A stretch of DNA of 64,000 nt from Ostrinia nubilalis (taxonomy: Eukaryota; Arthropoda; Insecta; Lepidoptera; Crambidae): NCBI RefSeq assembly GCF_963855985.1, contig NC_087093.1:9431501-9495500 (forward strand), written 5' to 3'. Every line of letters begins with the position of its first letter. Positions within the stretch are counted from its first letter, which is position 1. A program made the translations under genes and the position numbers. Positions 10,835 to 55,276 of this stretch are shown here, in pieces. Under the pieces are notes generated by a model. The model was given only the letters and a program-made list of their open reading frames with translations, had not been told where the DNA came from and made no database searches.

Positions 10835-10839
10835 CGGCG
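10835..10839. repeat. Target-site copy 1 (CGGCG) of the Transib pair
   Basis: CGGCG directly precedes the CACAGTAG terminus of the left element. The same five bases occur at 13,321-13,325 and 16,789-16,793. Transib elements make 5-bp GC-rich duplications of this type. Confidence 0.9.
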
Positions 10840-11584
10840 CACAGTAGTTTGATTTTAAATATAGGTGGACATACGATCGAAAGTCATAATTTCATCGAAA
10901 CAAAAATTGTTTTGGATAGCATTTTGAATGCTGATCAACATTTGTTATTATGCATTTTTCGTAAAAACGAGCCTTTCATGCTTAAAAAAAATATGACAAA
11001 AAAATTTGTATGGAGAAAAAACGTTTTTATTTTTTTTCTGGCCACTGTTGCAAACTGTAGCGGTCAAACCTTATGTAGTCGTAAGTACCTATGGTGCCTA
11101 ATATTACTACATAAAAAAATTTTGCGGGCACGCGCGGCGAAGCGAGTAATGGACATGCAAAATTTTAAGTATTTTTATTTATGGATTATTGATTTTAATG
11201 CACTTAAAGTAATTATTAATAGGAAAATAGACTTAGTCTAACTTAGTACAGCCCCCTATTACCTCATTTCACACTAAAACCTTTCAAACTAGAACCTAAG
11301 TTTTTAGGTACAAGGTAGCCTAAGTCGATTATTGACATTATAATATTCACTACTGGTCTAGTGGTTATGGTGTAAGGTAGATTAGGTAGATATGTACCCT
11401 TTTACCTAGGTATATACCTACTTCTTAGCACGTATAATACCCGACAGACATGATTAAAAAAAGTATTCAAGCAAAAACCCTTGACTTCAATGGTCTTGAA
11501 AGATTTTTTTTTACTTTCTAGAGTAGTCCTGAATAGATCCTTAAATCATTGACAGTCAATGTCATAATCGATTACAGTAGGTAG
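10840..11584 (+). repeat. Left arm of the foldback Transib-type element
   Basis: Pairs as an inverted repeat with 12,583-13,320, with scattered substitutions and short indels (about 95% identity by eye in the outer half). The inner limit is set where ATTACAGTAGGTAG meets its mirror. Confidence 0.85.
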
Positions 11585-12079
11585 TTTCAATTTTGATATA
11601 ACTGTAATTTCCAGTTTTCTGATAAGTTATATACACTTTCGCAAAAAGTGATTCTTTTTTTTGGCTCCTTTAAAGAGTTGTAAGTTCCTTTTCCTTCGTC
11701 TATTAAAAAAGATAACGTACATAACACCTTCATCAAGTAGCCTCAAACATATTAAGGTTTGAAATATAACACCTTTATCCAAGCATCGAACAGAGAAAAA
11801 TCTGAAATCCGACATTTATCACCTTCTTCCATTCATGTCTTCAATTATTATCTTCGTTCGAAAAACAATCAAAAAATATATTTTAACCTATTCACTTATA
11901 TTGAACAGAGTGTTCAAAATAATCTAAGTCACTCACATACTTTTTCCGAAAGAATCCAATAGGCAGTTAGCCAGTACACCAAAATGTTATCACATTTTAT
12001 CTGCACCATGTATCAGGATTTTTTGTACGTTAGCTGGCATATAAAACTATAGGTAGAGGTGAACATAATGGATCTGCAA

Positions 12080-12465
12080 TAATGTGTGGCTATACGGCTC
12101 GGAAACGTGGCCTCTCAATATAGGCCTTATAAATAAGCTCAAAATTGCACAGCGTGCTATGGAGAGGGCTATGCTCGGTGTTTCTTTACGAGATCGAATC
12201 AGAAATGAGGAGGAGATCCGTAAACGAACTAAAGTCGCTGACATAGCCCAACGGATTAGCAAGCTAAAGTGGCAATGGGCAGGGCACATAGTACGCAGAA
12301 CTAACGGCCGATGGGTCAGCAAGGTTCTGGAGTGGAGGCCACGTACCGGAAAGCGCAGCGTAAGACGTCCACCCACATGGTGACTGACGACCTCATACAG
12401 CAGGAAGGCGCTGGATGCAGGTCGCCACCAACCGGCCATTGTGGAAATGATGATGGATGATGAAT
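12080..12465 (+). mobile_element. RTE 3' fragment inside the Transib-type loop
   Basis: Encodes the C-terminal RTE tail in sense: GSETW, an [14 protein letters not shown] block, LRDRI, WQWAGHIVR and RSVRRPPT, followed by the RTE 3' end and a degraded GATGATGGATGATG tail. An extra GAG codon and a stop after the PPT motif mark it as dead. It sits in the unpaired loop, so it may have inserted after the arms formed. Confidence 0.85.
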
Positions 12466-12582
12466 AATGTGTGGAACAGGGTTGCGGGTATTCCCATTTA
12501 TGCAAGAATTATTTGACTAACTTTAATAGAGAGTGATAAAAATGTATTGTTTACTATAACCGTTCAACCCTTACTGAACCCA

Positions 12583-13320
12583 CTACCTACTGTAATCGAT
12601 TATGACAGTCAAAATGATATAAAGATCTATTCAGGGCTACTTTAGAAAGTAAAAAAATATTTCATAGCCATTGAAGTCAAGGGTTCTTGCTTGAAGACTT
12701 TTTTTAATCATGTCTGTCGGTATTATACGTGCCAAGAAGTAGGTATATACCTTGGTAAAAGGGTACATATCTACCTAATCCATCTTACACCATAACCAGT
12801 AGACCAGTAGTGAATATTATAATGTCAATAATCGACTTCGGCTACCTAGTACCTAAAAACTTAGGTTCTAGTTTGAAAGGTTTTAGTGTGAAATGAGGTA
12901 ATAGGGGGCTGTACCTAGTTAGACTAAGTCTATTTTCCTATTAATAATTACTTTAAGTGCATTAAAATCAATAATCCATAAATAAAAATATTTAAAATTT
13001 TGCATGTCCATTACTCGCTTCGCCGCGCGTGCCCGCATAAAATTTTTATGTAGTAATATTAGGCACCATAGGTACTTACGACTACATAAGGTTTGACCGC
13101 TACAGTTTGCAACAGTGGCCAGAAAAAAAATAAAAACGATTTTTCTCCATACATTTTTTTTTGTCATATTTTTTTTAAGCATGAGAGGCTCGTTTTTACG
13201 AAAAATGCATAATAACAAATGTTGATCAGCATTCAAAATGCTATCCAAAACAATTTTTGTTTCGGTGAAATTATGATTTTCGATCGTATGTCCACCTATT
13301 TTTAAAATCAAACTACTGTG
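12583..13320 (-). repeat. Right arm of the foldback Transib-type element
   Basis: Mirror of 10,840-11,584. It ends in CTACTGTG at 13,320, directly against CGGCG and then the CACACTGG terminus of the next element. Confidence 0.85.
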
Positions 13321-13325
13321 CGGCG
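13321..13325. repeat. Shared target-site copy 2 (CGGCG) between the two Transib elements
   Basis: The five bases are both the right flank of the element ending at 13,320 and the left flank of the one starting at 13,326. One of the two must have inserted into the duplication made by the other. Confidence 0.9.
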
Positions 13326-13360
13326 CACACTGGATCGAGCCCATACAAGGCGTTGGACAT
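13326..13360 (+). repeat. Transib terminal inverted repeat, 3' side of the gene
   Basis: Begins with CACACTG, where RAG recombination signals have CACAGTG, and continues GATCGAGCCCATACAAGG. Mirrored at 16,754-16,788. Confidence 0.9.
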
Positions 13361-13793
13361 CGCTTCCTTTCTCAATGTTTTTAAAATAAAATGAGATTGC
13401 GTCAACGTAGCAACTTCAAATTTTTACAGTGTAAGGTTGACAAGTTTATCTTTCTAATTTGGTAGGTTTTACTTATTAAATGGCAATTAATATAGGTGAA
13501 AAAAAATCTCAAAATATAGTGATGAAAAACTTGTATTTATTGTTAAATTAAAAGCAAATACTTACTTCTTTTGGTCTATTTCCATATTTAAAGAGTGACA
13601 TAATCTAACAATACCCTAAATTTATTCTCATTGAGTGTTAAAATTATGAAACAAATATTTTTGTAAACGCCTGATTTTTTATTGCACACAATCACTTTAT
13701 TCGATTTTATCGAGCTTGATTTCATAATATTCTGTTAGCTGTTAGATACATACAAATGCAATTTTATAGGGTGATAAAATACCTTTAATTTAA

Positions 13794-15952
13794 TTATTCT
13801 TCAACAAATGTAATATTAGAATCGTCTGAAACAAGGAGATTTTTAACTTCTATTAAATATTTGTGTTTAGTTTGTCTTTTTATATGACTGGAAATTATAG
13901 GATCAGATAGTAATAACAGCGAATGTATTATGTCAGTATTACATATTTCTCTAGATAGTTTCCGAGTATGGTGCAGTCTTTGGTATCTAAATACTTTATG
14001 GCTTGCCCCTTGGGCATCTTCTGACAGCTGCCCTATTGGAATTATACCATTATATTTTATGATATCAGCACCATGAATTAATATTTTATGAACTGTAACT
14101 GGCATGTGATACCAGTCATATAATGAAACATATAATTCCGCGGTCTCTTGTGTGTATTTTTTAAATGATTCTATGTTTACTTCATATCCAGAAGATATGG
14201 TTTGAAGTATGATGTAAAACCTTTTTATAAGTTGCTCATTAATGCCAGTGATACGGGCACTTATCTTATAATTGGTAAAAAAAGCACGAGCCGTATTCCC
14301 ATCATTGGTCTTTCCTGAGCCCTGTTTAACAAAATCGACTAACAAACCCAACTCTCTTCTAAAATCCTGTTGTATTTGTTGTTTTCTTTCTTCTTTAATT
14401 TTTTTGTTTTCGTCCCCTCTCACTGACCATGATTTAAATGGGAGATTGTAAGCTATGTGTAGTATACACTCAAAACTTCTTATCCATGCATGGAGTGATG
14501 ATGCCCCATACCCAAAGTGTTCTTCATTTGGTGGTTTTGTATTAATTAAATCTAGCTTATTCATGGAAAGTGGGTTAGCTCCACAAATAAAACATTTCAT
14601 GGCGGATTTATTATCAGTCAAATCATTACATATTTTCGTATCAACCATAGTGAAATGTAATTTATAATCAACAGTATTATTATTATTAATTTTAAAAGGC
14701 TCCAAACTGGTTATTTGTTCCCTTATGTCATTATAACACTCCTTTGTTAACCTTTCATTTTCTTTTTCGAATCTAAAAAGAATTGGCCTACAATATCTCG
14801 ATGAAGATGTTGCTGGATTTTGCCAAATTACAGATTCAGTATCAACATCATACAATTTGATTGGTACAAAACTGCACATAAACACCGATGAGTCATCAAA
14901 ACCAGGGTCAGAGAAGCTGTGTTTATAAGTAGCCTGAGAAGAAGCACCATCACACCCCCATTTTAGTATTAATGTGTATTTATGAGACTCCTCAGTGTTA
15001 ATACTAGTCATTTTCAATATTCTTGAAACAGTCAGGTCTAGAATATCTTGTAATCTAATTTTTACCTGAACCTCTGATACAATTATTGATTCAGAGGGCG
15101 GATAACAATCCTGTTTTGCTAACTGTATTTGATAATAGCTAGGTAATAAGTCGGAAGCTATCTCATTTACCGTAGATCTAATGTCAATATATTGTTGTTT
15201 TGTAAGATCATTATTTAAGTACAGACGAAGAGCATCATCCTTGCATATCGATTTAGTTTCATTTGATAATAGACTTTCACAAAAACTTTTGATTGCCTCA
15301 TTATACTCAGGATGGTTTTGAATGAAATCAAAAATAAACTTTGCATTGGAATCCATAAGATTTTTTGATGCTAAGTAATCGATATGCTCTTGAGGAGATT
15401 TCTTTAAATAATCAGTTCTACGTCTCTTCTGGCGATCACTTAGTTCTAAAAAATGTTTCTGTGGAGTAGTACTTGAAGAAGAAGGTAAACTAGATGGACT
15501 TGGCGGACTACAAAACTGACTCCAATCAACAGATTGACTAAGCCAATCTACGTTTGTAGCTAAAAACTGGTTCTCACTATAACGACACTGCTTCTTCTTG
15601 CGACAAACAGTGTCAATGAAATTATTTATTTTTTTCGATAGTTGTCTGAAAAATAAAATGTATAACTCAGTACCTATCTAACACAATCATAAATTAAAAA
15701 AAATTTACATACGAAATGTATGTGTAATAAATTCAACGACAATCTTTTGTGATGATGTGATTTTTTACTATGTCTGTTTTATAGTATTTCTTTATGTACA
15801 TAAAGTATTAACTACGTTAGTACTCACCTCTGTTTATCTGAAGAGAGTGTATGCGAAAACAGCTCTAATATCCTAGCCAAAGAACTAGCGCGATCTTTCA
15901 TAGTAGTTTTTAATAATGCGTACAAATCACTATTTGTCTTGAGGTTTTCCAT
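13794..15952 (-). CDS. Transib transposase (RAG1-core-like), two exons
   Basis: The product would cut and join Transib ends and is the family from which RAG1 is thought to derive. Exon 1 is 15,952-15,828 (ATG, 41 codons plus two bases, donor AG/GTGAGT). Exon 2 is 15,645-13,794 (acceptor TTTTTCAG/A). The join is in frame and gives 658 aa, the usual family size. The downstream methionine at 15,356 would give only 520 aa and cut off a well-coded N-terminal region rich in Ser/Pro and basic residues. Motifs in spliced numbering: CDGASS with Asp274; MVDTK with Asp377, just before CFIC (Cys393/Cys396); a SSLHAWIR block; NDGNTAR; HKILIH (His561/His566), matching the RAG1 zinc-binding pairs; and LSEDAQGASHK. 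In family alignments as I know them, the residue three before the His-Lys pair is the catalytic Glu. Here it is Gly588, encoded by GGG at 14,009-14,007, one transition from GAG. If so, the enzyme keeps its fold but not catalysis. A poly(A) signal lies at 13,678-13,683. Confidence 0.9.
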
Positions 15953-16753
15953 TTTAATTAGTATTTTAACTGAATTGCACACGAAATTGATTTGTAAACA
16001 ATAATTACTGAGGCAAAGAACAAGGAAATCTATAGGAGGGTATACCGATAAAAATATTGACATACAATAAAATTCTTGTAATGTTTAAAACTTTCGCGAA
16101 CCATATTTTATGTTCTTCACTGACATCATGTCGAACCCGTTAAAAGCCTTTAAATTAAAATAATATATCACAAACAACTCATTTAAACCAAATTAAACAT
16201 CTTTGGTTTACCTGACATTATTTTAGTGTAACGAATTTGACTAAAGTGAATTTTGCTCTGTGGAAAATTGAGGCGCTTTTTTTTGGTTTTTTGTTATTTT
16301 CTAGAAAATAGGGATGAATAAGGGTCCAAAAACTGAGTAATAATATCGCCCACATTGTCATCTATCATCTCTCATTCATGGTTTGTTAAAGATTGCCCAA
16401 GATGTCAACTAAAATACGCAGTTTTCATTTCAAAAAATACCTTTTAAAAATACGTCAAAATAGCCAAGCTAGAAGTTTTTTAGGCACTCATTTTAACATA
16501 CAAATTAAGATAATGGTATAAACTAATACATTATTAAGTACTAACATAAAACGAGTTAACGAAATTGGATAAATTGACAATACAAACAGAAGTCAGAAAA
16601 TCCATGATTTTGACTTTGTTCACTTTACGGTCGCACCACATAGCTATGATAGTAGATCATGACTTGATATTAATGATATTTGATAGAATGAAGTCTCATC
16701 TTTCAACTTATATGCAAATCAGTCTTGTTTTAAGTAGTTGCATTTAAAGCACC

Positions 16754-16788
16754 ATGTCCAACACCTTGTATGGGCTCGATCCACCGTG
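16754..16788 (-). repeat. Transib terminal inverted repeat, 5' side of the gene
   Basis: Inverted, it starts with CACGGTG and matches 13,326-13,360 at 32 of 35 positions. Confidence 0.9.
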
Positions 16789-16793
16789 CGGCG
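16789..16793. repeat. Target-site copy 3 (CGGCG)
   Basis: Right flank of the autonomous Transib. The DNA before copy 1 and after copy 3 would join as GTGG-CGGCG-CCCAATC in an empty site. Confidence 0.9.
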
Positions 16794-19443: not shown

Positions 19444-21113
19444 AGGTTCGGTCAAACTAGCGCGTGCGGATCGCGTTAGCGATGGCGATCACTGCGCGTG
19501 CATAGGCGCAATGTCAGGACGCGCCCAATTTGCCATTAGGCGATTATCACACTGCGCCGCGCTCCGCCGCGGAACGCGTGATTACATACATATACGAGGA
19601 CTATTTAAACGACAGATACCAGTGCGTTAGGATAGGAAATATCACAAGTCATGAACAGAGATGCTCTGGTTTTGGTGTTCCCCAGGGAAGTATCCTGGGC
19701 CCTACCCTGTTCCTGATCTACATTAATGACTTGTGCAACCTCAACATAGGTCATGGTAAACTTGTATCATACGCCGACGACACAGCGCTATTATTCACAG
19801 CCAAAACCAGCGCGGAGCTTTATGAGACTGCACAGCTAGGTTTTAGCATTGTAACTGACTGGCTTCACTGCAATTTACTAACACTAAACGCCGACAAGAC
19901 TAAATTCATAAACTTTTCTATGCGCAGCCGACACGAAAATTCAAAGAATGCTTATCTTTATGCACACCAATGTCAAACCCCGCCTACCACTACATGTATG
20001 TGCCCCACCATCCATGAAACTAACAACCTAAAATATCTCGGGATCATAATTGACGGGACACTCTCCTTCAGACCTCACATAGAAAATTTAGTTCAAAGGG
20101 TACGCAAATTAATATATGTCTTCAAAAAACTTCGAACAATAGCAGACAAAAAACTGATCACAAAAGTATATTTATCGCTCTGCCAATCTATTATCCAGTA
20201 CTGTATCACTTCTTGGGGTGGAGCACATAAGACTATATTAATTCCACTTGAACGAGCTCAGAGAGCCATCTTGAAAGTCGCGAATTCTCTTCCCTTTTTC
20301 TACCCTACCCACCTACTATATAGTTCCTGCAATGTGTTAACTGTCCGCCAATTATACATAATGCACACATTACTTAAACAACACACCTCGCACTTTTATG
20401 TTGCTGATGATGACACCACTAATAAAAGACGGAAAGACATAGTCTGCACTTCGCAATCCATCTCCAAATTTATTTATACAAATAGATTTTTTACTTTCCT
20501 CGGTCCGTTTCTGTACAATAAATTAAATAAGACTCTTAACATATATGCCCTAAATTTATATAACTGTAAAAAAGCCGTATTTAAGTACCTTCAATGTTTG
20601 ACATATGACTTAACTGAGGAGCTACTTGTAGTACCTATGTAATCTAAGTTTTAACCTAAGTATTTTAAAAAATTGTATTTAATATAGCAAATTGTTAATT
20701 TATATTTAATCACTATTTAATGTGTGAGCTTTTTTCGCCTGAAACACAGGTTTTTAACCTAGCTCAGGCTACAAAAGACTGTGAACTATATGTAAACTCT
20801 AGCATAATAAGTTCGTATAATGCTCTTATTTTAATGAATAAATTATTTATTATTTATTAAATTATTTATTATAAAAATTATTTATTATTATATACAAAAT
20901 CCCGCGCGCAGACGCGTTGTCAGTGTGTTGTGCCGCGCGTTTTTTCTATACAAACTGAGGTACTTGCATACAATGATTAAATCTGTCGTCCCGCGTTCCG
21001 CGGCGGAGCGCGGTGCAGTGTGATAATCGCCTTAGCCTATGCACGCGCATCAATGTGTTAAAGTCGCCATCGCCATCGCGCACGCCGGCTGCACGCTTTG
21101 ATTTGGCCGAACC
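19444..21113. mobile_element. TTAA-flanked palindromic DNA element, split by a retroposon
   Basis: The left arm (19,444-19,575; GGTTCGGTCAAAC.AGCGCGTG) and the right arm (20,985-21,113; inverted GGTTCGGCCAAATC) form a GC-rich inverted repeat. Both share GGCGATTATCACACTGC and CGCGCTCCGCCGCGGAACGC. TTAA lies at 19,440-19,443 and 21,114-21,117. TTAA flanks fit piggyBac- or Kolobok-like non-autonomous elements. Most of the interior is a later retroposon insertion. Confidence 0.75.
19578..20885 (+). pseudogene. 5'-truncated CR1-group retrotransposon RT, inserted in the palindromic element
   Basis: An uninterrupted frame to the stop at 20,642 encodes the second half of a reverse transcriptase plus its C-terminal domain. 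It has GVPQGSILGP, a YADDTALLF catalytic box, LNADKTKF, LKYLGI and a Trp-Gly motif near the thumb. Endonuclease and RT fingers are missing, so the open start at 19,530 lies in host-element DNA and is not a real start. The 3' end runs into an (ATTT/ATT)n tail at about 20,835-20,890, typical of CR1-group tails. Truncation makes it non-functional, yet the surviving frame is intact, so the insertion is not very old. Confidence 0.8.
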
Positions 21114-22675: not shown

Positions 22676-23425
22676 ATGTCGCTTACTATGGGCCTCATAA
22701 GAAGGCTCAAGGTCACCCAAAGGGTGATGGAGCGGGCTATGCTCGGGGTTTCCCTGCGTGATCGAATCAGAAATGAGGAGATCCGCAGGAGAACCAAAGT
22801 GACCGACATAGCAGGCAGAATTGCTAAAATCAAGTGGCAGTGGGCGGGACACATAGCTCGTAGAGACGATGGCCATTGGGGCAGAAAATTTCTTGAGTGG
22901 CGACCACGGGCTTAGGGTTGCCAGGCGTCCGGCTTTAGCCGGACATGTTTGGATTTATAGGGGCTTGTCCGGCCAAACATTGTCTTGTCCGGCCTGTCCG
23001 GCTTTTGTTAGGCTTTTTATGTGGCTGCCGCGCCAGTCGAAACTCGAGCCACAGATTAATATAACGTAATTCATTCAAAGATGATAGTACCCTCTCATGA
23101 GCTATGACGCATATTGTACCCCCCCCCCCCCCCCGTGACATGGTACATTAGCTATTAAAAAGGTATGTCCGACTTTTAGGGTAAAATGTCCGGCCAAATG
23201 AAGCACAGAGTCCGGCTTTTGTGTTTTTGGACCTGGCAACCCTACACGGGCTGGAAGACGTAGCGTGGGCAGGCCTCCTACTAGGTGGACCGACGATCTG
23301 GTAAAGGTCGAGGGAAGAACCTGAATGCGGGCAGCGCAGGACTGTTCATTATGAAAAACCTATGGAAAACCCAAAGGATTCTCGCCTTTGTCCAGCAGTG
23401 AACGTCATTTGGCTGTAACGACGAA
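22676..23425 (+). mobile_element. RTE 3' fragment, interrupted by a hAT MITE
   Basis: The first piece (22,676-22,912) encodes the RTE tail ([33 protein letters not shown]) and stops at CACGGGCT. The second piece (23,245-23,425) resumes at CACGGGCTGGAAGACGTAGC and runs to CCAGCAGTG and a short CGACGAA tail. Removing the insert and one CACGGGCT copy rejoins the two halves exactly. Confidence 0.9.
22913..23244. mobile_element. 332-bp hAT-type MITE
   Basis: Perfect 13-bp terminal inverted repeats (TAGGGTTGCCAGG / CCTGGCAACCCTA) are flanked by the 8-bp direct repeat CACGGGCT (22,905-22,912 and 23,245-23,252). An 8-bp duplication with such ends is the hAT pattern. Near both ends the word TCCGGC(TTT) or its mirror occurs several times, as expected of transposase-binding subterminal repeats. 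A 16-base C run lies at 23,119-23,134. No transposase is present. Confidence 0.92.
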
Positions 23426-25159: not shown

Positions 25160-28100
25160 ATGTTTAATATTGTTCACCAAAATATCCAGGGTTTGGCCGG
25201 CAAGGATCTAGAATTAGAATTATTTTTAAAAAGCCATAATGTAAATGTCATTTGTATTACTGAACATTGGCTAAAAAAGGCAGAAGGTTCCTTTCATATT
25301 GATGGTTATCAATTATCTAGTGCTTTTTTTCGAAAATCTGCTATTCACGGTGGATCTGTAATATTTATTAATAATAATTTAAAATGCAAGGGACGACATG
25401 ACGTAGTAGGGCTTTCGGTTGAGCGAGTTATTGAAATTTCTTGTGTGGAGCTTGAGAGATATATTGTATTATGCGTGTATCGACCACCTTCTGGTGACTT
25501 TAGTGTATTTGAGGCGGTTATGGAAGATGCCCTTAATAAGGTCAGCAACAAAAATAAAAAAATCTTAGTTTGTGGTGACTTTAACGTTAACTTGATGGAA
25601 AGCTCATCCACGAGTATGAGACTGCTAACTCTTTTAAATCTTTTGATTTACATGGCCAATTCATGGAGCCGACAAGAATAACAGATACAACGGCTACCTG
25701 TTTAGATAACATATTTTGTAATTGTGTTCCCGAAAGAAAATCAATTATTAACAAGTTAACTTCTGATCATTGTGGCCAATTAGTTTCATTAAAATGTACC
25801 ACTCTAAATAATGATAATACTCAAAAACTAATTATTTGTACACCTATTACAAGTGGTCGATTAGAAAATTTCAAGAATAATTTAAGTAATAAAGTGCATC
25901 TTGTTCCATACACCGAGGGTGACCCAGAGGCACTTTACAGTAATCTCTTTGACTGCATCAAAAATGAGTACAAGAAAGTCTTTACTGTGAAAAAAATTCA
26001 ACCAAAGGAACGTTCGAAATTTAGTGACTGGGCAACTATAGGTATACACAAGAGCAGAAATACATTATATGAGTTATACGGTATGAAAAGGTACAATAAT
26101 AGTTTATCTTTTAAAGACCATATCAAAAAATATTCTAAAATGTTTAAAAAAGTTTGCTACTTGGCTAAATCTCTGTATATACGAGATAAAATAAACAACG
26201 CCAATAATAAAATAAAAGAGACATGGAATGTAATAAATCATGAAACTGGCAAAACTAAGCCGCGTGACAGTGAATTTGCACTCAAAATAGATGATTGTTC
26301 AATTAATACGGACAAAGAAGTAGCAGACGCTTTTGATAAATTCTTCTCTAACATACCACTTGTTACCACTGCAAACTTGAACTCCTCATCTACTGAGGCT
26401 GAATTAATCCTTAAAGATCATGTAGCTCCCTGTAACTCACAACTTACCTTTAAACACATCACTCCTTTGGATATTATAAAAGCTTTTAATAAGCTAAATG
26501 TAAAAAATACTACTGATCTATGGGGAATCTCTGTGAAGGTAGTCAATCATATTATCCACATCATTGCCCCACAGTTGGCGATTATATTTAACAACTGTGT
26601 GGATAAGGGGGTCTTCCCGGACCTTATGAAGCATAGCAAAGTTCTGCCGCTCTTTAAGTCTGGCAGCAGGCTCGACCCTAGTAATTTTAGGCCAATTTCA
26701 ATCTTACCAGCTTTAAGTAAAATTTTTGAGAAAATTATACAAGAACAGCTTACGATCTATTTCACTTTAAATAAACTTTTTCATAGTGAACAGTATGGTT
26801 TTACTAAGGGTCGTTCCACTACCGACGCTGGTGCTACTCTCTTCAAACATATTTTTGGGGCTTGGGAGGATTCTCAGAATGCCTTAGGGGTGTTTTGCGA
26901 CCTATCAAAGGCTTTCGATTGTGTTGAACATCAAACGCTAATTCGAAAACTAGAATATTACGGAGTCAGGGATTCAGCACTTTCATTTATTCTATCGTAT
27001 CTCAGTGGCAGGATTCAAAGAGTAGATATAAACGGAACTATTTCATGTGGGTCACCCGTAAAAATGGGAGTTCCTCAAGGGTCCATTCTGGGTCCATTAT
27101 TATTTCTCATCTATATAAATGATCTTCCATCATTTGTAAAGAACTCCTGTGAAATCGTATTATTTGCCGACGACACATCTTTGATTTTTAATAGGGGAGA
27201 GGGGGGCAGCTTTGAACAATTTTCATACTTTATTAAATATCTTCCAAATTTGAACGATTGCATTAATTTTTTCTTCCTAGATAGAGGTCATGGTTATCAC
27301 ACAACAAAATAATGATGTTCTTCTTAATTATTCATGAACGCTTATTAAGATATTTAGATTTTTGCACAGACCTATAAACGTTCAAAACTGCCCCGTAGTC
27401 GGGGCAGCCTTGAACACGCCTGGGGCAGTTTTGAATTAGTATTTTTTTCAATGAAATAAAACTGAATATTTATGAATGTGTATTTTTAAAATAATTAATA
27501 AACAAAATTTTAAATGATCAGTGTCATTTGGGATCAATTTAACATGTTTATTTTATTTTACATCACTCTGTACAAGGTAACACAAAACTTAGGGATATTA
27601 TTAAAAAAAAGTAAATATAAGATATATCAATTAACTAAATACTAATAAACTTTCTGTTTAATGACACATCAAAGACAAAACTGCATAATTTAAAAAATAT
27701 CAATCAACTACTAAAACTAGCTCTTGCCCGGACTTCACCCAGCTTGAAATTTTATCTGTCACAGTAAAGCAATCTGCTTATTTTTTATGTAAAAATCTTC
27801 TACGAAGTATTAGAAAGCTTTAGGTTTCATAATACCACTTAAAAAAGAAAATTGATAAAGTTCAAAGGTGCCCCAACCATTTCGTTCAAAGCTGCCCCAT
27901 GGGTATATTTCCAGAAAAAAACATAAATTTAATAACGGAACATACTTTTATATAGCAATTTCTTATCAAATCTTCATTGAAACTATTTAAACTTCCATAT
28001 AGTAAACAAACCAATCACTATTTTATAAAACTACGTCCACAAAATCCTTAGAACCAAAATAAAAAAGTGCGAAATTGGCAGTCAAAAACAAAAAAACACT

Positions 28101-41000: not shown

Positions 41001-44000
41001 TACCACTATTTACCAGACATTACTATTTATTGCATACTCGCCGGATTACACGTAGGAGCACGCGCGTTACAGCTTCGGCCTTGCATTATTATAAGATCTT
41101 GTTCCGCCCTTTTACGAACTTCCTCCGTGAGGATATCCCCGCCGAATTCTATGATGAACCTATCAAAAGTCATATTCTGCAATGTCAACCCACCACAAGG
41201 TGGACCGACGACCTGATTAAGGTAGCGGGAAGGCGCTGGATGCAGGCCGCTACCAACCGTGCGATGTGGAAGTCATTGGGGGAGGCCTATGTTCAGTAGT
41301 GGACGTCCTGTGGCTGAAATGATGATGATGATGATGAAATGAATGAAAATGACAAATCTTCGAACGTGTATAATACCGTGCCAAAGTAATCATATAATTT
41401 TGGCACCTTAATAACTATTGCCGTTTTTGTTGTAAAGATCATGCAGCGCTACTTGCGGATATTATTGGAAAGAAAACTATGTGGGCTCTAGATCTGAAGC
41501 CGCTTTAACTAACACGAAGTGCTCATACAATGCGGCGTATTTTCTTCCAGTCTTTAGTCAGGACTTTAGTCGAATTAAAACTCCGGTTGAACGTGATATA
41601 GCCGCACTAGAATACGATGCTTTTTTGCATAATCGCAAGATTTCGTTCCGGTGTCGACCGAATGTTATCATGATGTATGTGGCCCAGGGGTTACCGTAGC
41701 CGCTAAGGTTTGAAACTTCTTGCTTAAAATATTGTAGTCTTTGGCATAGACTACGACGGTAGTCATGGAGATAGGAGTTTGTTATCTCGTGTCAGATGTA
41801 AATGGTGAAAAGAAAACTCATGATTCGTGTTATTTTTATGCAATATGTAGGTATTTTATAAAAGTGGAACCCCGAGTGATCTCCAAAACCCATTCTATTA
41901 TTATATACGATTCGGCTTCGATATCTATAATACAATAGGAGTTTATTTCATGTGTCAGATGACAAGGGTGGAAACAACCTATGATTCATGTTGTTTATTT
42001 ACGTGCAATATGTGGGCATATTATAAAAGTGGAATGCCGAGTTGTATTTCTAAAACTTGTTCTATTATTTTATACTATTTGGCTGCGACTCGGCGTGACG
42101 ACAATACAAAACATTTTTCGCGAATCGGTGTTCATACATTCACACAATACATTAGACGCCATGTTGTCATAAACGACATACCTATTATAAAATCGCTGTG
42201 ATTTAATATTCTTAATCATTAATTTTATGGCAAGTGTCCATCAGGAATCATTGTTCTTACACACAGAATCGTATTATTTCGCTTTCGGGTAGTAATATGT
42301 CAAAATTGTTGGTTTTTAGGCGAACAATGTATGGAGAACGAACATTGTCCTTTGATAAGCAAGCAGATTACTAATTTGGTCTATTTCTGCCGCGGCCGTG
42401 CAAGCGAAATCCTAATTAATACGGATTACGTAAATAACTAAATTTCTAATTGCTTTTTGCGACTAAGTATTTGACTGAATCAGGACCTGACCTGATGGTT
42501 TGTTGGCCGAATATAAGCCAGTTGTTTTGGGTTCTAATTCCGCTGGCAAACGTTAGTTTGACGCGAACATAATCATTTATTTATTAAAGTATAGCTATCC
42601 GTACCTACCTATCTAGTCACCATCCATGGTACATACAAGCTCTACTTAATTTGGGAGTAACTGTAGGTAATATTATTAGTATTTAGGAGTAATCGTTTTA
42701 AAACATCATCATAAGGCTACAGTTGTTGGTTAATACGTTTCAGCTTTAAACCTTGTCTTCAACTTGTCGCATTCAATTTTAAAATCTGTAATCATCTATA
42801 TTTATTAAAAAGCATTCCTTTTCCTGTGAAGCCCTAGTAAAGAAACAAAATTGCTTTTTTTCTGAACTACAGTCAATAAACCCATAAAAACCTCCGCGGT
42901 CGCTGCTATCGGGACAATGAATCACTATTGCATGCACCTCGTAAACTGAATCATACCTGGATGATATATCGTAGTTAGGTTAACAGTGTAGTTAGTGGAC
43001 GGGAGACTAAGGACGCAAACGAACTCCTCCCAGGGCGTCGCCACGTCATCGTCGTGCACCACCGCCTGCGTCTCCACGGTGTACAGACCCCACGAGTCCA
43101 TTCTCATGTCTGTCACGGCCTGACTCAAAGCCTTTCTGAAAAACAAAATTGCCCTCCTCGTAATTGCACAAAGGTTTCCGCCAACTCAAACAAGCGGTGA
43201 GTGATCATTTATAAAAGTACTCCGGAAAACTTAAATGCGAACACGATATGTGTCTCCCGAATTTATTTCGCTAACTATAAATCAATATTTGCAATTCAAC
43301 GCAATTAATGCAATCAAATGGACCGTTTTAAAATGTCGTTGTTAGTTTACCAAAATAGTCAGCTTAATTAGTAGCGATTCAATAAATACCGTTATCCGGC
43401 TTACAGTGAATTGATTACACAATTTCCAGTAATGGCAGCAATTCTTTTGACTATTTCCTAAATTACCTGAGCTGGCTGCCAAGTAGATGCTAGATCTTTT
43501 GCTATCTGTACCATTCGAACATGTTTTATGCCAGCGAAGATTGTAAAAGAGAATTGTAGCGTTTCGCTACCGCATATTCTAAATTATTTTTTGATAAGAA
43601 TAGAAAATGTTTAACTCTGCTGCAACTTCGAAGCAAGCACAAAATAATTCGATGTGAATTTGTATCTGAATTTTAAAACGTAAATTTTTGGAATAGGAAT
43701 TTCTTACCCCTGTGACAAAATAGTCATCACTGGTCGTGGGTACAAATCTGCAGCGACACAAATAAGTGTGACCAGAAACACATATTTCTTTTCTTGAATA
43801 AAACTAAATCTCTTGCCGGTACCTGAAAGGTAAGGTCAAAATCAATAGAATAATAATCACTAATTCAAAATTTAAGTGCCTAAAACAATTTTGTTGTCCA
43901 CGCTCTGAGTATCAATTTCTAGTTGCCAAGGAAACCCTCTTCAAGACAAGGTCAAACACGAGTATAATCCTAAAATAATTTATATCTTACATTATTTGCG

Positions 44001-50000: not shown

Positions 50001-53000
50001 ACTTCCATTCTGCTCTAACTCCGTTAAACTAAATTGGATATATTACTTCGCACGTCAGTAAACTTAAGTTTGGCATTTTCGTAATTTTGTGCTTAATCAA
50101 CGTCAACCTTATTTAAAGTTCTTCTAGAACTTTAAGTAATAACTTTGGGTATTTTTCGCTTTTAATAAACACGTTGGTGTTGTAATGATATTGTTGCTAG
50201 TTAGGTAATGTATTAGCATACTTTAGAGCTTATCTAAATAACCACAGTTTGCTCATACCTCATAGGTACCTGTGAGAACTCATCGTTCGTTCGTTTCAGC
50301 CGAAAGACGTCCACTGCTGGACAAAGGCCTCCCCCAAGGATTTCCACAAAGACCGGTCCTGCGCCGCTTGCATCCAGGTACTTCCCGCGACCTTTACCAG
50401 ATCGTCGGTCCACCTAGTGGGAGGCCTGCCCACGCTACGTCTTCCAGCTCGTGGTCGCCACTCAAGAACTTTCCTGCCCCAGCGGCCATCAGCTCTTCGA
50501 GCTATGTGCCCCGCCCACTGCCACTTGATTTTAGCGATTCTGCGGGCTATGTCAGTCACTCTGGTTCTCCTACGGATCTCCTCATTTCTGATTCGATCAC
50601 GCAGGGAAACTCCGAGCATAGCACGCTCCATCGCTCTTTGGGTGACCTTGAGCCTTCTTATGAGGCCCATAGTAAGCGACCACGTCTCAGAGCCATACAC
50701 CATCACTGGCAACACACACTGGTCAAATACTTTTGACTTGAGACACTGCGGTATTTCGGACGTGAGAATTTCGCGAAGCTTCCCGAACGCTGCCCAGCCG
50801 AGTTGGATTCGACGATTAACCTCTTTCTCGAAGTTGGACCTACCTAACTGGACTGTTTGTCCCAGGTATACATAATTGTCAACAAGTTCGAGTGTAGTGT
50901 CTCCAACCTTCAGAGGAGTGGGTACAACACGGGCATTTGACATAATTTTTGTCTTGTCCATGTTCATTTTAAGACCCACTTGTTGAGAGGCTCTACTGAG
51001 GCCATCGAGCATTGTGTTTAGGTCCTCCACGGTCTCAGCCATGACTACGATATCGTCCGCGAAACGAAGGTGGGTGATATACTCGCCGTTGATATTTATG
51101 CCGAATCCGCTCCAGTCCAGAAGCTTGAAAACATCTTCCAGGGCGGTGGTGAACAGTTTCGGAGATATGACATCTCCCTGTCTCACCCCTCGCTGCAACT
51201 GGATAGGTTTCGAGTTCTGATCCTGGAGGCGGACCGACATTGTGGCGTTTTCGTACAAGCCCTTCAGCGCTTCGATGTATCTATAGTCAATTTGGCACCG
51301 TTGGAGAGACTGTAGCACTGCCCAGGTCTCGATCGAGTCGAAGGCTTTTTCATAGTCCACAAACGCCAGACAAAGTGGCTGATTATACTCCTCGGTCTTC
51401 TGTATAATCTGCCGTAGCGTATGTATGTGGTCTATGGTACTAAAGCCTTTTCGGAAACCGGCTTGTTCGGGAGGCTGGAAGTCGTCGAGCCTGCGTGCGA
51501 GACGATTCGTGATGACTCTCGAAAACAGCTTGTAGACATGGCTCAGAAGTGAGATGGGTCTATAATTTTTTCAACAAGGTTTTGTCGCCTTTTTTGAAAA
51601 AAAGTATCACCACACTTCTGTGCCATGCCGTAGGCGTTTTTCCCTCAAGTATGACGGAATCGAACAGCCTCTGAAGAGCCTTTAGTACCGGCGTTCCGCC
51701 TGCTTTCAGAAGCTCAGCCGTGATTCCATCATCACCCGGTGCCTTGTTGTTTTTCAGCTGTTTGAGAGCCATTCTAATCTCGTACAGGCTGACGTCCGGG
51801 ATATCTTCGGTGTAGTGTCGGGTCAGTCTAGCTCTTGGGTCTTCGGCTAGATTTGTGACAGGTGTACGTACACTCGTGTATAATTGTCCGTAGAACTTCT
51901 CAACCTCTTCCAATAACTCAGGCCCCGACGAGATGTCTCTGCCATCCTCGGTCTTCAGCTTGGTCAGTTGACTTTGGCCAACAGACAGATCCCTAGCGAA
52001 CACTTTAGAGCCTTTGTTACGCTCAATCGCCTCTTTAATACGATCTGTATTAAATTGGCGTAGATCGCGAGTCAAAGACTTGGAGATCTGTCTGTTAAGA
52101 CGCCGATACTGAGCAGCATCTTCAGAGGACTGCAGAACCAAGTTTCGTCTCTCTTCCATAAGTTTATTGGTGAGGTCAGAGATCTTTTTGGTTCCTTTTG
52201 GACGACGGGTTTTAAAGAACTTAGACCCAGTCGTTTGGACAATTTCCACGAACCTGTCATTGTATTCGTCCACATTTTCGCAGTCTCCTAGGCATTCGAA
52301 ACGATTTTGCAACTCGAGCTGAAAGCTTTCGGGGTTTTGGAGTTGGATGGGCGCTGGGCGGAGCGTAGACTTCATCAGTCGACGCCTCTCAAGCTTGGGT
52401 CTGATATTCAATGTGCCTCTTACCATTCGGTGATCGCTTCCTGTTTTGACCGAGTTGATCACAGAGACATCATTGAATATATGCTTCTTCGTCGACAAGA
52501 TGAAGTCGATCTCATTTTTTATAGCGCCATTGGGATGCAGCCATGTCCACTTTCGCTGTTTTGGCTTCCTGAAGAAGGAGTTCATCATAAAGAGGCCCTC
52601 CCTCTCCATAAAGCCAGCCAGCAGTTGGCCACGTGCGTTCCTCTCTCCATACCCAAATTGCCCCACTTTCAGCTCATTATCGCTTCGTCTACCCAGCTTC
52701 GCGTTGAAGTCCCCCATCACAACGGTAAAATGGGACCGGGAGCTATGTATGGCTCTGGAAATATCCTCATACATAGTCTCCACTTCGTCGTCGGGGTGTT
52801 CCGTGGTCGGTGCGTATACCTGTATGACCTTCAGCGAATACCGTTTGGTGATTCTGAGTATAAGGTACGCTACCCTCGCCGAAACACTCTCGATCTGGAC
52901 CACGTTGTTGACAAGGGACTTGTGGACGATAAACCCGACACCACCCTGGGACTGCTGGTCGCCCTCCCGGAAATAGAGCAGGTTTCCGGATTTCAGGATT

Positions 53001-55276
53001 ATGGTGTCCTCCCCCTCTCTTCGGACTTCGCATAATCCTACGATATCCCACCGCAACCTGCTCAGTTCTTCCTCGAGTTCGGCGAGCCTCACGTCAGTCC
53101 GCAGCGTGCGAGTGTTAAATGTTGCCAGGGCCAGAGGTCGTCGGGGTTGGTAGCCTGTCGGTACCCGGTGATTCTTAGCACCCCTCGCCCCACCGTTACC
53201 GTGACCGCTACCGTGGCCCGGGATAGTGGGGCCGCCGGGGACTAGGGGCCGTGTTTTTTTGTTCCTCTCCATGGGGGGGATTTGCCTTAATCGCCACGCT
53301 TGGCAGGCGGGTTGGCGATCGCAGTTTTTTATAAGGTTTCGCACGCAGACGCTGCTGCCCGTCCGGTGCTGCAGGGATTTTGTCGCCTCTTACGACACGC
53401 CTCCTGTTGGCGGTGGGGAAGAGTATTCTTTATGGCCGTCCCCACACGGAGAACTCATACGTACATAAAATAGGATCTAAATATGGGGATGTGGGTGTGA
53501 GAGCGTGTGGCCAACGTTTAAGCGTATATTTTATGAACCTAAACTTTTTGAAACTCACATCATTTTTATTTAAGTATATTAAATGTAGGTACAACTTTTG
53601 AAATAAGCTTGATAACATTCTGTAAAATGTATTGTAGGTATGAACTGAAGTATCGATTCAGTACCTGGGTAAAATTTTTAAAACACCTTAAAGGGAAAAC
53701 AAACAAAGCCTCTCTTAGTGTTTCCGTTACCTAATAAATCTCTACTTTCTAGACCGAGTGATAAATTAGGTCGAAAATCAACCAAATTTAATAAATTGCT
53801 GAGACTTCGTAATTAGTGAGTTGTTTCTACCACCTCTTCTCACTACATCTAACATTATGAATATTCATATTATTAAGTGAAAATCGAGTAAACTAAACAT
53901 TAAATTCTCTTGCTTCAAAGCAAAATGATGGAATCACCTTATTTCATCCGAGCGATCTTAAGAACTAAATTACTAATGAAGATTAATAAAAAATGGGTAC
54001 CATCAAAGGTTATAATTATAAACTCTAAATAGATACCGTGGTACCTCCTACATACCTATCACATAGCTCGAAACAAAATACAAGAAGGCCGGTGGTCCAT
54101 ACTTGCTCGTAAGCAGATATAGATAGAAATCAATCCGCCTGTATACACTCGATTTGTCATCGGGCTTATGATAATCCTCAACGTATACAAATAACAGATG
54201 CATGATATATGAGTATTCAATAGCTGTATATAGCTTCTATAGTGCACGTTTCAAACCTAGATCTATGCCCATTGCGTTCCATAAGCAAAAGGAATGGTTT
54301 GGATGCACAAAGCCTTTGAGCGGTACCTTAACCACAGTAAAACAAAGGACCAATTGTAGCCCGAGAATATGTCGATATTATGTTATGCCACGTCTTACAA
54401 GTAAGTATAAGTACGTCTTACAATAGGTACATAGTATAGATCAAGGCCCAATCATTCAAAAATATAATATAAAAACCTTCCAAAAACAATATCAGACTGA
54501 TGAGTGATCAGGTTCGTTTAAACATTCCGCCACCAATTTTATTGGGAAAATTGAGTAGCACATGTTTTTGAAGTTTTGAGTAAGATATACTTAGGTATTA
54601 TTACCTAATGAAAACAGAAGTAAAAACATTGAAGGCTAACATCAATGTAATAAATCCATCAGCGCTTTTTCCCAATGCATGTTATTTCCATATGTATCAT
54701 CATCAACATCATATGATAATATAATCCACATGGATAAAGACAGAAAATCTATTTTTTCTAATTTAAATTATACCTACTTAATCCACAAAGTTAACGTTGC
54801 AAGCAACACTAGGGTATAATAATTACTTGTTTCGCAGATATCATCTGCTTCCATCTAACACTAGAAAGTTGCGACGAAGCAAACGCGACTCGACAGACTC
54901 GACGACTTAATCCAATAAGCTTTGTGTTATACACCTATTTTAAAATGAGATGAATCCAAGTAGATATTAAAGTGCTGCTTTAGGTTCTTCTTACGTGATT
55001 TTGAAGTTATTAACATGAGAACGTTATCAATAAATGGGATATTTGAAACCTTCAGTGGGCTAGACTGGAATGCCCGAGGCTAAAAGTTCGAGTCTTATTG
55101 GAGATAATTCATGTTACCTGTGTGTTATCCGTGTAAAAGATATGTTTATAAAAAATAGATGGACCCAACGTAAATGGCAAAGAAACTGTAAATTATTGAC
55201 TTACAATGCAATGAATGTGTAAAGTAATTATAGTAAAATGCTTACGTGTCAGAAAAAATATCACCAACGCAAACAT
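35073..55276 (-). CDS. Two-Ig-domain secreted/surface protein (beat-like architecture), 7 exons
   Basis: Exons: 55,276-55,246; 46,809-46,573; 45,850-45,722; 43,822-43,708; 43,135-42,957; 36,458-36,387; 35,155-35,073. All have AG acceptors and GT donors (mostly GTAAG), phases match at all six joins, and the sum is 846 nt, giving 281 aa. Residues 1-15 are a signal peptide ([10 protein letters not shown], then CVAVN). Ig1 spans 16-132 with Cys37 and Cys114 (GNYTCVV) and Trp54 (MKWFF). Ig2 spans about 133-230 with Cys154 and Cys211. N-glycosylation sites are at N16, N57, N111, N219 and N223. Residues 232-260 are a polar linker, and 262-278 a hydrophobic tail that may be a GPI signal or poor membrane segment. 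Such proteins act in cell adhesion or recognition. V-type Ig1 plus a short Ig2 resembles insect Beaten-path relatives, but I cannot name the orthologue. The 31-nt first exon and the last exon are the least certain parts. Confidence 0.8.
35278..35400. mobile_element. About 120-bp MITE (GGGTTGCACCA ends), intron 6
   Basis: The left end TTAGGGTGAGTTGCACCACC and the right end, inverted TAAGGCTGGGTTGCACCATC, pair imperfectly, followed by mirrored AACTTTGAC words. TA or TTA at both ends suggests a Tc1/mariner- or Harbinger-type MITE. A degraded second copy is at 44,599-44,707. Confidence 0.7.
36490..36735 (+). mobile_element. tRNA-derived SINE, intron 5
   Basis: The head has an A-box (TGGTGTAGTGG) and a B-box (GGTTCGATTCCC) in tRNA spacing, but the acceptor arm does not pair, so it is a SINE promoter and not a tRNA gene. 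The body contains TTGTTTGTATTGGACTGGGT and TACAAGCTTTGCTTAGTTTG, and ends in a TCCAAGGATAC tail. Copies lie at 58,272 and 63,133, with fragments at 17,065 and 42,630. It sits 32 bases upstream of exon 6, close to the branch-point region. Confidence 0.88.
36849..37039. mobile_element. MITE with 36-bp inverted ends
   Basis: The left end GATCGTTTCATCCACGAAGA and the right end, inverted GATGGTTTCATCCACGAAGA, continue into CGCGCCCCACCA on both sides. TA flanks each end, which fits a Tc1/mariner-type MITE. Non-coding. Confidence 0.85.
37040..38096. other. Intron 5, no further feature seen
   Basis: AT-rich intronic sequence without paired ends or coding signal. Confidence 0.4.
38097..39010. mobile_element. 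About 0.9-kb element with GACCAGGAACATAAAAACCC ends
   Basis: GACCAGGAACATAAAAACCC at 38,104-38,123 is mirrored at about 38,984-39,003. TA occurs just outside both ends. No transposase is encoded. A 172-bp MITE (38,410-38,581) sits inside. Confidence 0.7.
38410..38581 (+). mobile_element. 172-bp MITE, copy 1
   Basis: Runs from TATAGTTCCAAAATACTGGA to GCGTGGGTCATCTATA. Its own ends are imperfect inverted repeats (CTG.ACTGTCC inside both). The exact-length inverted copy is at 39,585-39,756. Confidence 0.85.
39188..39368. mobile_element. 181-bp near-perfect palindromic MITE
   Basis: AATGAGGGTTTTCGCGATTG at the left is mirrored at the right (CAATCGCGAAAACCCTCATT). Pairing runs about 78 bases inward with only two or three mismatches around a short TGACATGACATTGACA centre. 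It would fold into a long hairpin RNA if transcribed. Confidence 0.88.
39585..39756 (-). mobile_element. 172-bp MITE, copy 2 (inverted)
   Basis: Reverse complement of 38,410-38,581, with about a dozen differences by eye. Starts TATAGATGACCCACGCTGAA and ends CAGTATTTTGGAACTATA. Confidence 0.85.
39757..40754. other. Intron 5, no further feature seen
   Basis: No supported coding signal; short minus-strand frames at 40,066 and 40,550 lack motifs. Confidence 0.4.
40755..40992 (+). mobile_element. RTE 3' fragment, (CGAA)n-tailed subfamily
   Basis: Carries GGCACATAGCTCGTAGAGCT, GTGGACCGACGATCTGGTGA and CCAGCAGTGGACGTC, and ends in ACGAACGAACGAACGA, the same tail as the full-length copy at 50,284. 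An antisense open frame here is not a gene. Confidence 0.88.
41193..41336 (+). mobile_element. RTE 3' fragment, (GATGAT)n-tailed subfamily
   Basis: GGTGGACCGACGACCTGATT through AGTAGTGGACGTCCTGTGGC and a GATGATGATGATG tail. The tail type differs from the neighbour at 40,755, showing two RTE subfamilies have been active. Confidence 0.88.
41771..42098. repeat. Diverged tandem duplication, 164-bp unit
   Basis: ATAGGAGTTT starts at 41,771 and 41,935. Both units share GTGTCAGATG, CATGATTC/TATGATTC, GCAATATGT, TTATAAAAGTGGAA and TTCTATTATT in the same order. Substitutions are frequent, so the duplication is old. The frame at 41,481-41,699 just upstream ([10 protein letters not shown] motif) looks protein-like, but I cannot identify it. 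Confidence 0.75.
42200..42900. other. Intron 5, SINE tail fragment only
   Basis: Positions 42,630-42,665 share TACAAGCTCTACTTAATTTG with the SINE body. Otherwise nothing is recognised. Confidence 0.4.
44599..44707 (-). mobile_element. Degraded copy of the 35,278 MITE, intron 3
   Basis: Shares ATCTGTCAAACTC, the AAAAAACACCG..TAACGTTA stretch and GTTAAAGTTAAATGTTGCAA in inverted order relative to 35,278-35,400. Confidence 0.55.
46322..46477 (+). mobile_element. 156-bp MITE with ACGCCCGTATTCACAAAC ends, copy 1, intron 2
   Basis: ACGCCCGTATTCACAAAC at the left is mirrored by GTTTGTGAATACGGGCGT at the right. TTA-type bases flank both ends. The middle contains GTGGACGTACAGGGTGACA and AACCAATCACAGAGCTCTAT. 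Confidence 0.85.
46905..46980 (+). mobile_element. Lepidopteran retroposon 3' snippet
   Basis: CGTGCTGAGAAAAGGCAGCG, then AAGAAACTCAG, is the inverted, diverged form of the GAGTTTGTTGCGGCGCTTCT block at 31,650. It is too short to classify further. Confidence 0.4.
47090..47286. mobile_element. 197-bp TA-flanked MITE (GGGGAGACC ends), intron 1
   Basis: Ends GGGGAGACCGAGGAGAGTTG and, inverted, GGGGAGACCAAGGTGAGTTT, with TA at 47,088-47,089 and 47,287-47,288. A GAGTTGTGACA word near the left end is mirrored by TGTCGTAACTC on the right. The first nine terminal bases (GGGGAGA..) resemble those of the larger element at 27,194. Confidence 0.85.
48545..48668 (+). mobile_element. RTE 3' fragment, (CGAA)n-tailed, intron 1
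   Basis: GGTGGACTGACGATCTGGTG through CCAGCAGTGGAGGTC, with a GAACGAACGAA tail. About 120 bp, 5'-truncated. Confidence 0.85.
48909..49063 (-). mobile_element. 155-bp MITE with ACGCCCGTATTC ends, copy 2, intron 1
   Basis: Inverted copy of 46,322-46,477: shares CACAGAGCTCTATTCAACGC (as its mirror), GTACGTCCACGCG and GAATACGGGCGT. The left terminus has decayed to CTGCCCTCATTCACAAA. Confidence 0.82.
50274..50283. repeat. RTE target-site duplication, 3' side
   Basis: GAGAACTCAT, repeated at 53,449-53,458 on the other side of the element. Confidence 0.9.
50284..53448 (-). mobile_element. Full-length RTE retrotransposon, intron 1
   Basis: This 3,165-bp element is bounded by the direct repeat GAGAACTCAT. 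The 5' end (at 53,448) is a GC-rich leader of about 100 bases, and the 3' end is GGCTGAAACGAACGAACG with no poly(A), as in RTE elements. It is inserted in the same orientation as the host gene, 1.8 kb downstream of exon 1. Intact ends, the clean duplication and only one frameshift show it is recent. It is the best template in the window for the many truncated copies. Confidence 0.95.
50296..53344 (-). pseudogene. RTE endonuclease-reverse transcriptase, one frameshift
   Basis: The first part (53,344-51,560) has an APE-type endonuclease: FNTRTL (Asn77), LCEVRR (Glu106), [16 protein letters not shown] (211-218), WTWLHPNG and SDHRMV (303-308), then the RT start [10 protein letters not shown]. An extra A in an A6 run near 51,569 shifts the frame and gives a stop a few codons later. 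In the other frame the RT continues without stops through [35 protein letters not shown] and the FADD catalytic box (51,063-51,052), then the thumb and the C-terminal [10 protein letters not shown] tail to 50,296. The joined length is about 1,020 aa, normal for RTE. This type is often annotated in Lepidoptera as an HmRTE-like endonuclease-reverse transcriptase or a craniofacial-development-protein-2-like gene. Long antisense open frames across it are shadows. Confidence 0.93.
53449..53458. repeat. RTE target-site duplication, 5' side
   Basis: GAGAACTCAT, matching 50,274-50,283. Confidence 0.9.
53459..55245. other. Intron 1, 5' part
   Basis: AT-rich, no further repeat paired and no coding signal. 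The donor of exon 1 is GTAAGC at 55,245-55,240. Confidence 0.4.

Follow-up and report, generated by a model that had tools for sequence, protein, structure and literature searches.

A 64,000-bp stretch of the Ostrinia nubilalis genome (hereafter the window; contig C6, positions 9431501-9495500) contains two Transib-type elements, E1 and E2, which stand head to head with a single CGGCG between their facing ends. We are highly confident that the locus is a double insertion, in which the two elements successively used one CGGCG. All genome searches covered a single assembly of 495 Mb in 52 contigs. A sequence-only reading of the window had placed three copies of CGGCG at the outer and inner borders of two elements, and this was confirmed, each copy lying exactly at a border of E1 or E2 (Table 1). 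E1 starts with CACAGTAGTTTG, an inverted copy of which finishes the element as CTACTGTG, while E2 begins with CACACTGG and closes with CCACCGTG. CGGCG is somewhat common in the window (40 occurrences on both strands, compared with a mean of 26.85 in 100 shuffles), so that its exact placement at the four tips, and not its presence, is the non-chance part of the arrangement. The tips define real elements because copies elsewhere are flanked by matching 5-bp target site duplications (TSDs), as seen for all 20 E2 and all five E1 copies that were read at both ends.

Under this reading, insertion of a first Transib-type element at a single CGGCG would have duplicated the site. Another element with the same taste for CGNCG would then have inserted into one of the duplicates, leaving three copies of the motif and a pair of opposed ends 5 bp apart. 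From the anatomy of the locus, the two families, their TSDs, the motif and a junction that occurs once in the assembly, we infer two separate events brought together by motif preference alone. Each step is of a known kind, and the double insertion, although neat, is for the most part ordinary. PMC4735498 gives CGNCG as the Transib target, and a table in PMC5704228 repeats it. Transposon dimers arising by repeated insertion into a TSD are described in PMC12628747, which credits McGurk and Barbash; the proposed origin, a further element using a duplicated target, is the same, whereas here two distinct Transib families are joined head to head. A limited literature search found no Transib-on-Transib stack. 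The locus offers a clear case from nature of RAG-related transposons inserted in a stack.

The two families and their ends

The arms of E1 pair over 608 nt with 97% complementarity (a stretch that includes the flanking CGGCG), further paired blocks follow inward, and no transposase was found within the element. Its loop contains a remnant of a non-long terminal repeat (non-LTR)-like sequence, related fragments of which occur in the window at 519-802, 22727-22908, 41190-41271 and 50432-50694 as well as at other loci. A Pfam search of this piece gave no match; judged by its TGATGATGG tail it appears to be RTE-like, TGA repeats being described for RTE elements in PMC1852546. A genome search with the left tip of E1 gave 214 first-look candidates, of which 40 were scored. 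CGNCG was present in 17 of 40 E1 flanks read and in four of the five duplications of copies read at both ends; the ends of the fifth such copy (206 bp, contig C2) were paired by a search for the end pattern described below. With its CAC heptamer and inner motif, its 5-bp TSD and its CGNCG preference, E1 most probably belongs to the Transib superfamily as a non-autonomous element, putatively mobilised by a Transib transposase.

The terminal inverted repeats (TIRs) of E2 agree at 32 of 35 positions, and the exact end CACRSTGGATCGAGCCC occurs 221 times in the genome (control, 0). A search with the E2 left end yielded 118 candidates, 40 of which were scored and listed, and 20 copies were read at both ends in the order of that list. 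All 20 were derivatives of 1.70-1.72 kb, and the duplication was CGNCG in 13. A homogeneous 1.7-kb non-autonomous derivative of E2 is widely spread, with perfect TSDs in every copy read. Counting the window and a copy on contig C32, CGNCG adjoined 18 of 30 E2 left ends. In the same set the target was asymmetric: CG adjoined the left end in 29 of 30 cases and was present on the far side in 19 (discordant 11 versus 1, P = 0.006). The fold-back element E1 showed little such asymmetry (CG at 28 and 26 of 40 ends). Like E1, E2 has the 5-bp TSD and the CAC heptamer-like ends of Transib elements. Since each family moves alone with 5-bp, often CGNCG, duplications, E1 and E2 are independent elements with the same target taste. 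Separately, six left ends of E2, all oriented alike, lie within 85 kb on contig C2 (14113565-14197628), where no exact right end is listed among them; they are perhaps an amplified segment.

When both tips of E1, both tips of E2 and that of the element neighbouring the E2 copy on C32 (NB) were aligned, all opened with CAC and all carried TGGACAT, and the description of the two elements as unrelated in the sequence-only reading was therefore too strong. TGGACAT begins at position 27 in E1 and NB and at position 29 in E2, which corresponds to a distance from the heptamer of 19 nt in E1 and 21 nt in E2. This resembles a recombination signal sequence (RSS), and PMC8355894 describes Transib ends in which a heptamer and a nonamer-like motif are separated by symmetric spacers of 20-22 bp. 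The pattern CACAGTR-N17..23-TGGACAT occurred 409 times in the genome compared with 50 for the reversed pattern. Among the matches listed, all but eight (counted by eye) fell into three families with a spacing of exactly 19 nt. For NB, both copies read at both ends had matching 5-bp TSDs, and CGNCG was found in nine of 12 flanks. A third CACAGTGG family likewise had matching 5-bp TSDs in three of three copies, none of them CGNCG (CAACG once, TCGCG twice). Two copies of this third family, on C5 and C6, have identical flanks and TCGCG duplications, which suggests that they lie inside a larger repeat. In total, four families with RSS-like ends (E1, E2, NB and the third CACAGTGG family) are present in one genome, and targeting of CGNCG is seen in E1, E2 and NB.

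These data also bear on a very improbable alternative, namely that 10840-16788 is one composite transposon moving between the left end of E1 and the right end of E2. Its outer ends are indeed both RSS-like and bounded by identical CGGCG, but a composite element leaves the internal CGGCG at the join unexplained, members of either family move independently of the other, between TSDs of their own, and the ends of the two differ in the spacing of heptamer and TGGACAT. Movement of the whole block as one unit, which the sequence-only reading had set against its own proposal, was sought in this assembly and was not found there. The junction was found once and no second block between new TSDs was seen, so that a composite of E1 and E2 was rejected within this assembly. 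On the other hand, insertion of one element into the 5-bp duplication of the other, as that reading had proposed, is well supported by families that move alone, by their TSDs and by the single junction.

Frequency of stacked ends

A genome search for GTG-N5 followed by an E2 end gave the window and one other place, C32:4957035, with CGNCG as the intervening bases in each (control, 0). Other Transib copies that adjoin a target copy and a second Transib end, a search for which (with CGGCG) the sequence-only reading had suggested, amount to one more stack, joined across CGNCG; E1-CGGCG-E2 itself was not found elsewhere. At C32 only the central junction was seen, its outer ends not being found in 6 kb leftward or in approximately 6 kb past an interruption rightward. 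The E1 tip pattern AAACTACTGTG-N5-CAC had 26 matches (reversed control, 4). A single repeat, with CCCTG or CCTTG and akin to the non-LTR-like sequence in the E1 loop, accounted for 18 of them, three were other sequence and five were E1 ends, of which only that in the window leads into a Transib end (E2). RSS-like ends followed by N5-CAC were found at 11 places (reversed control, 2), with approximately six expected by chance (1/64 of 409). Two of these were recognised stacks, the same two as found with the E2 end. In the 80-100 bp read at the remaining nine, nothing like TGGACAT was seen, a check that a Transib family with a different inner motif would have escaped.

A crude uniform null was calculated from the CGNCG usage of the two families (18/30 and 17/40), the 221 E2 ends, the 359 RSS-like ends left after subtraction of the control and approximately 666,000 CGNCG sites, the last figure extrapolated from the window alone. 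The number of stacks between E2 and CACAGTR-type ends expected in this way is approximately 0.03, with P = 0.03 for at least one and 0.0005 for at least two. P for two stacks rises to 0.04 if a tenth of the CGNCG sites are effective and to 0.45 if a fiftieth are. Because the window itself prompted the question, one site should in fairness be counted as excess. Two stacks, the window included, compared with approximately 0.03 under uniform choice weigh against a double insertion by motif preference alone, and a further factor, such as variation in site quality or chromatin, may have contributed. No allele with an empty site or with a single insertion was seen in the one assembly covered. The target preference postulated by the sequence-only reading is one for CGNCG in general; a special preference for a site beside a Transib end is not needed, even though the two stacks exceed the expected number.

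Such a preference would mean that Transib insertion is biased to CGNCG already adjoining a Transib end, for example because transposase on the resident end tethers the incoming complex, so that stacks exceed the rate set by the motif. We consider this unlikely. Besides the excess over uniform choice, the points in its favour are that in both stacks the left end of E2 faces an RSS-like end, with CGNCG between them, that both involve transposase-bearing E2 copies, and that GTG lies at 5 bp beside no other end matching CACRSTGGATCGAG. This shared composition is unexplained. Moreover, a 201-bp piece of the E2 transposase gene was matched at three places (the window on C6, C32 and C9), and the two stacks are those where a left end was found; the search with this piece counts copies of the E2 gene, other Transib transposases of the genome being outside the count. 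However, the numbers are tiny (two of 221 exact E2 ends and two of 409 RSS-like ends), one of the stacks prompted the question, with P of about 0.03 for at least one stack against the expected 0.03, no recognised Transib end follows at nine of the 11 places where an RSS-like end has CAC 5 bp away, and heterogeneity in the form of hot spots would yield the same excess. It is doubtful that incoming Transib elements, especially transposase-bearing E2 with its left end, favour a CGNCG because it flanks a resident Transib end. If they did, by end-tethered or self-targeted integration, head-to-head stacks would be the product of a mechanism and not of chance. Confirmation of the small excess of stacks would make it possible to test how relatives of RAG choose their targets.

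The E2 transposase

E2 contains an open reading frame (ORF) of 520 aa on the minus strand, which matched the HzTransib transposase (PDB 6pqn) with E = 2.3e-128 and RAG1L (PDB 6b40) with E = 1.9e-5, while a Pfam search of E2 gave no match. Joining of the exons over the predicted intron results in 658 aa without internal stops, and many relatives among the matches listed have 650-700 aa. In total, 671 proteins reached E ≤ 1e-10 among 7989 candidates scored, 120 of which were listed; the closest named protein among the latter, from Ostrinia furnacalis, shares 99% identity over 76% of the query.

The catalytic triad of Hztransib is given as D126, D225 and E436 in PMC6941560. By a constant offset of 17 these residues were mapped to D109, D208 and E419 of the PDB chain and, through the alignment of that chain with the E2 ORF, to positions 136, 239 and 450 here, hand-counted and then checked. 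The window copy is a RAG1-core-like DDE transposase that lacks a complete triad: D136 and D239 are kept, and Gly450 (codon GGG) occupies the position of the catalytic Glu. In an alignment of 10 sequences, query included, Glu is found there in all seven relatives that cover the position, and the E2 copy on C32 has it as well. With Gly450 in place of the catalytic Glu, the transposase of the window copy is probably catalytically dead, and we read it as a defective copy and not as a separate family.

This also concerns the proposal, made in the sequence-only reading, that the head-to-head ends could form a composite substrate of the RAG type, to be cleaved or rearranged. The geometry, with two CAC ends facing across 5 bp, is the point in its favour. 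However, the window transposase has Gly at the catalytic position, and the other two gene-bearing places found with the 201-bp piece are a deleted and interrupted copy (C32) and a decayed one (C9), which makes such activity extremely improbable. In the C32 copy the gene is interrupted by a gap of 32 bp, and an insertion encoding reverse transcriptase lies further along. For the C9 copy the right end lies beyond the stretch read, and no convincing left end was found within it; one candidate with up to 3 mismatches and without adjoining similarity was weak and taken as chance.

To return to the double insertion, the order of the two events was approached by counting private substitutions, which amounted to 12 in 1290 columns of the E1 arms and 4 in 916 columns of E2 (P = 0.21), a third E2 stretch of 617 columns being left out as it has no partner on C32. 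By this count we lean weakly, and not significantly, to E1 as the older element.

Compared with Hztransib of Helicoverpa zea (PMC1852546; PDB 6pqn), the E2 transposase is homologous over residues 40-500 of the 520-aa ORF, and both elements are similar in size (3463 bp for E2, 3518 bp for Hztransib) and have a 5-bp TSD. They differ in the catalytic Glu, which is present in Hztransib, and in the TSD, reported there as GCTCG. For the Drosophila melanogaster elements hopper and transib2, PMC3276498 likewise describes a TSD of 5 bp and a target motif that is palindromic and, in the case of hopper, GC-rich; the motif there is CCANTGG and not CGNCG.

Features of the locus and its surroundings

Table 1. 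Positions of the two elements, their ends and the target copies in the window
Feature	Position	Strand	Evidence
Outer CGGCG target copy, E1 side	10835..10839	no strand	
E1, fold-back Transib-type element, 2481 bp, long inverted arms	10840..13320	+	arms, TSDs of relatives, tip anatomy
E1 left RSS-like end: CACAGTA, 19 nt, TGGACAT	10840..10872	+	tip alignment, pattern search
Probable non-LTR retrotransposon remnant in E1 loop, borders approximate	12084..12471	+	ORF; recurrence elsewhere
E1 right RSS-like end, facing E2	13288..13320	-	tip alignment, pattern search
CGGCG common to E1 and E2	13321..13325	no strand	
E2, Transib element, 3463 bp; strand is that of the transposase gene	13326..16788	-	transposase match, TIRs
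E2 left end CACACTGG..., TGGACAT from position 29, facing E1	13326..13360	+	tip alignment
Transposase exon 2; 520 aa counted from internal ATG at 15356	13794..15645	-	ORF, structure match
Predicted 182-nt intron, GT...AG	15646..15827	-	prediction, no transcript seen
Predicted transposase exon 1; 658 aa together with exon 2	15828..15952	-	
E2 right end CACGGTGG..., TGGACAT from position 29	16754..16788	-	tip alignment, TIRs
Outer CGGCG target copy, E2 side	16789..16793	no strand	

Elsewhere in the window, ORFs for reverse transcriptase and endonuclease, as in non-LTR retrotransposons, are located at 19530-20642, 25160-27312 and 50296-53344.

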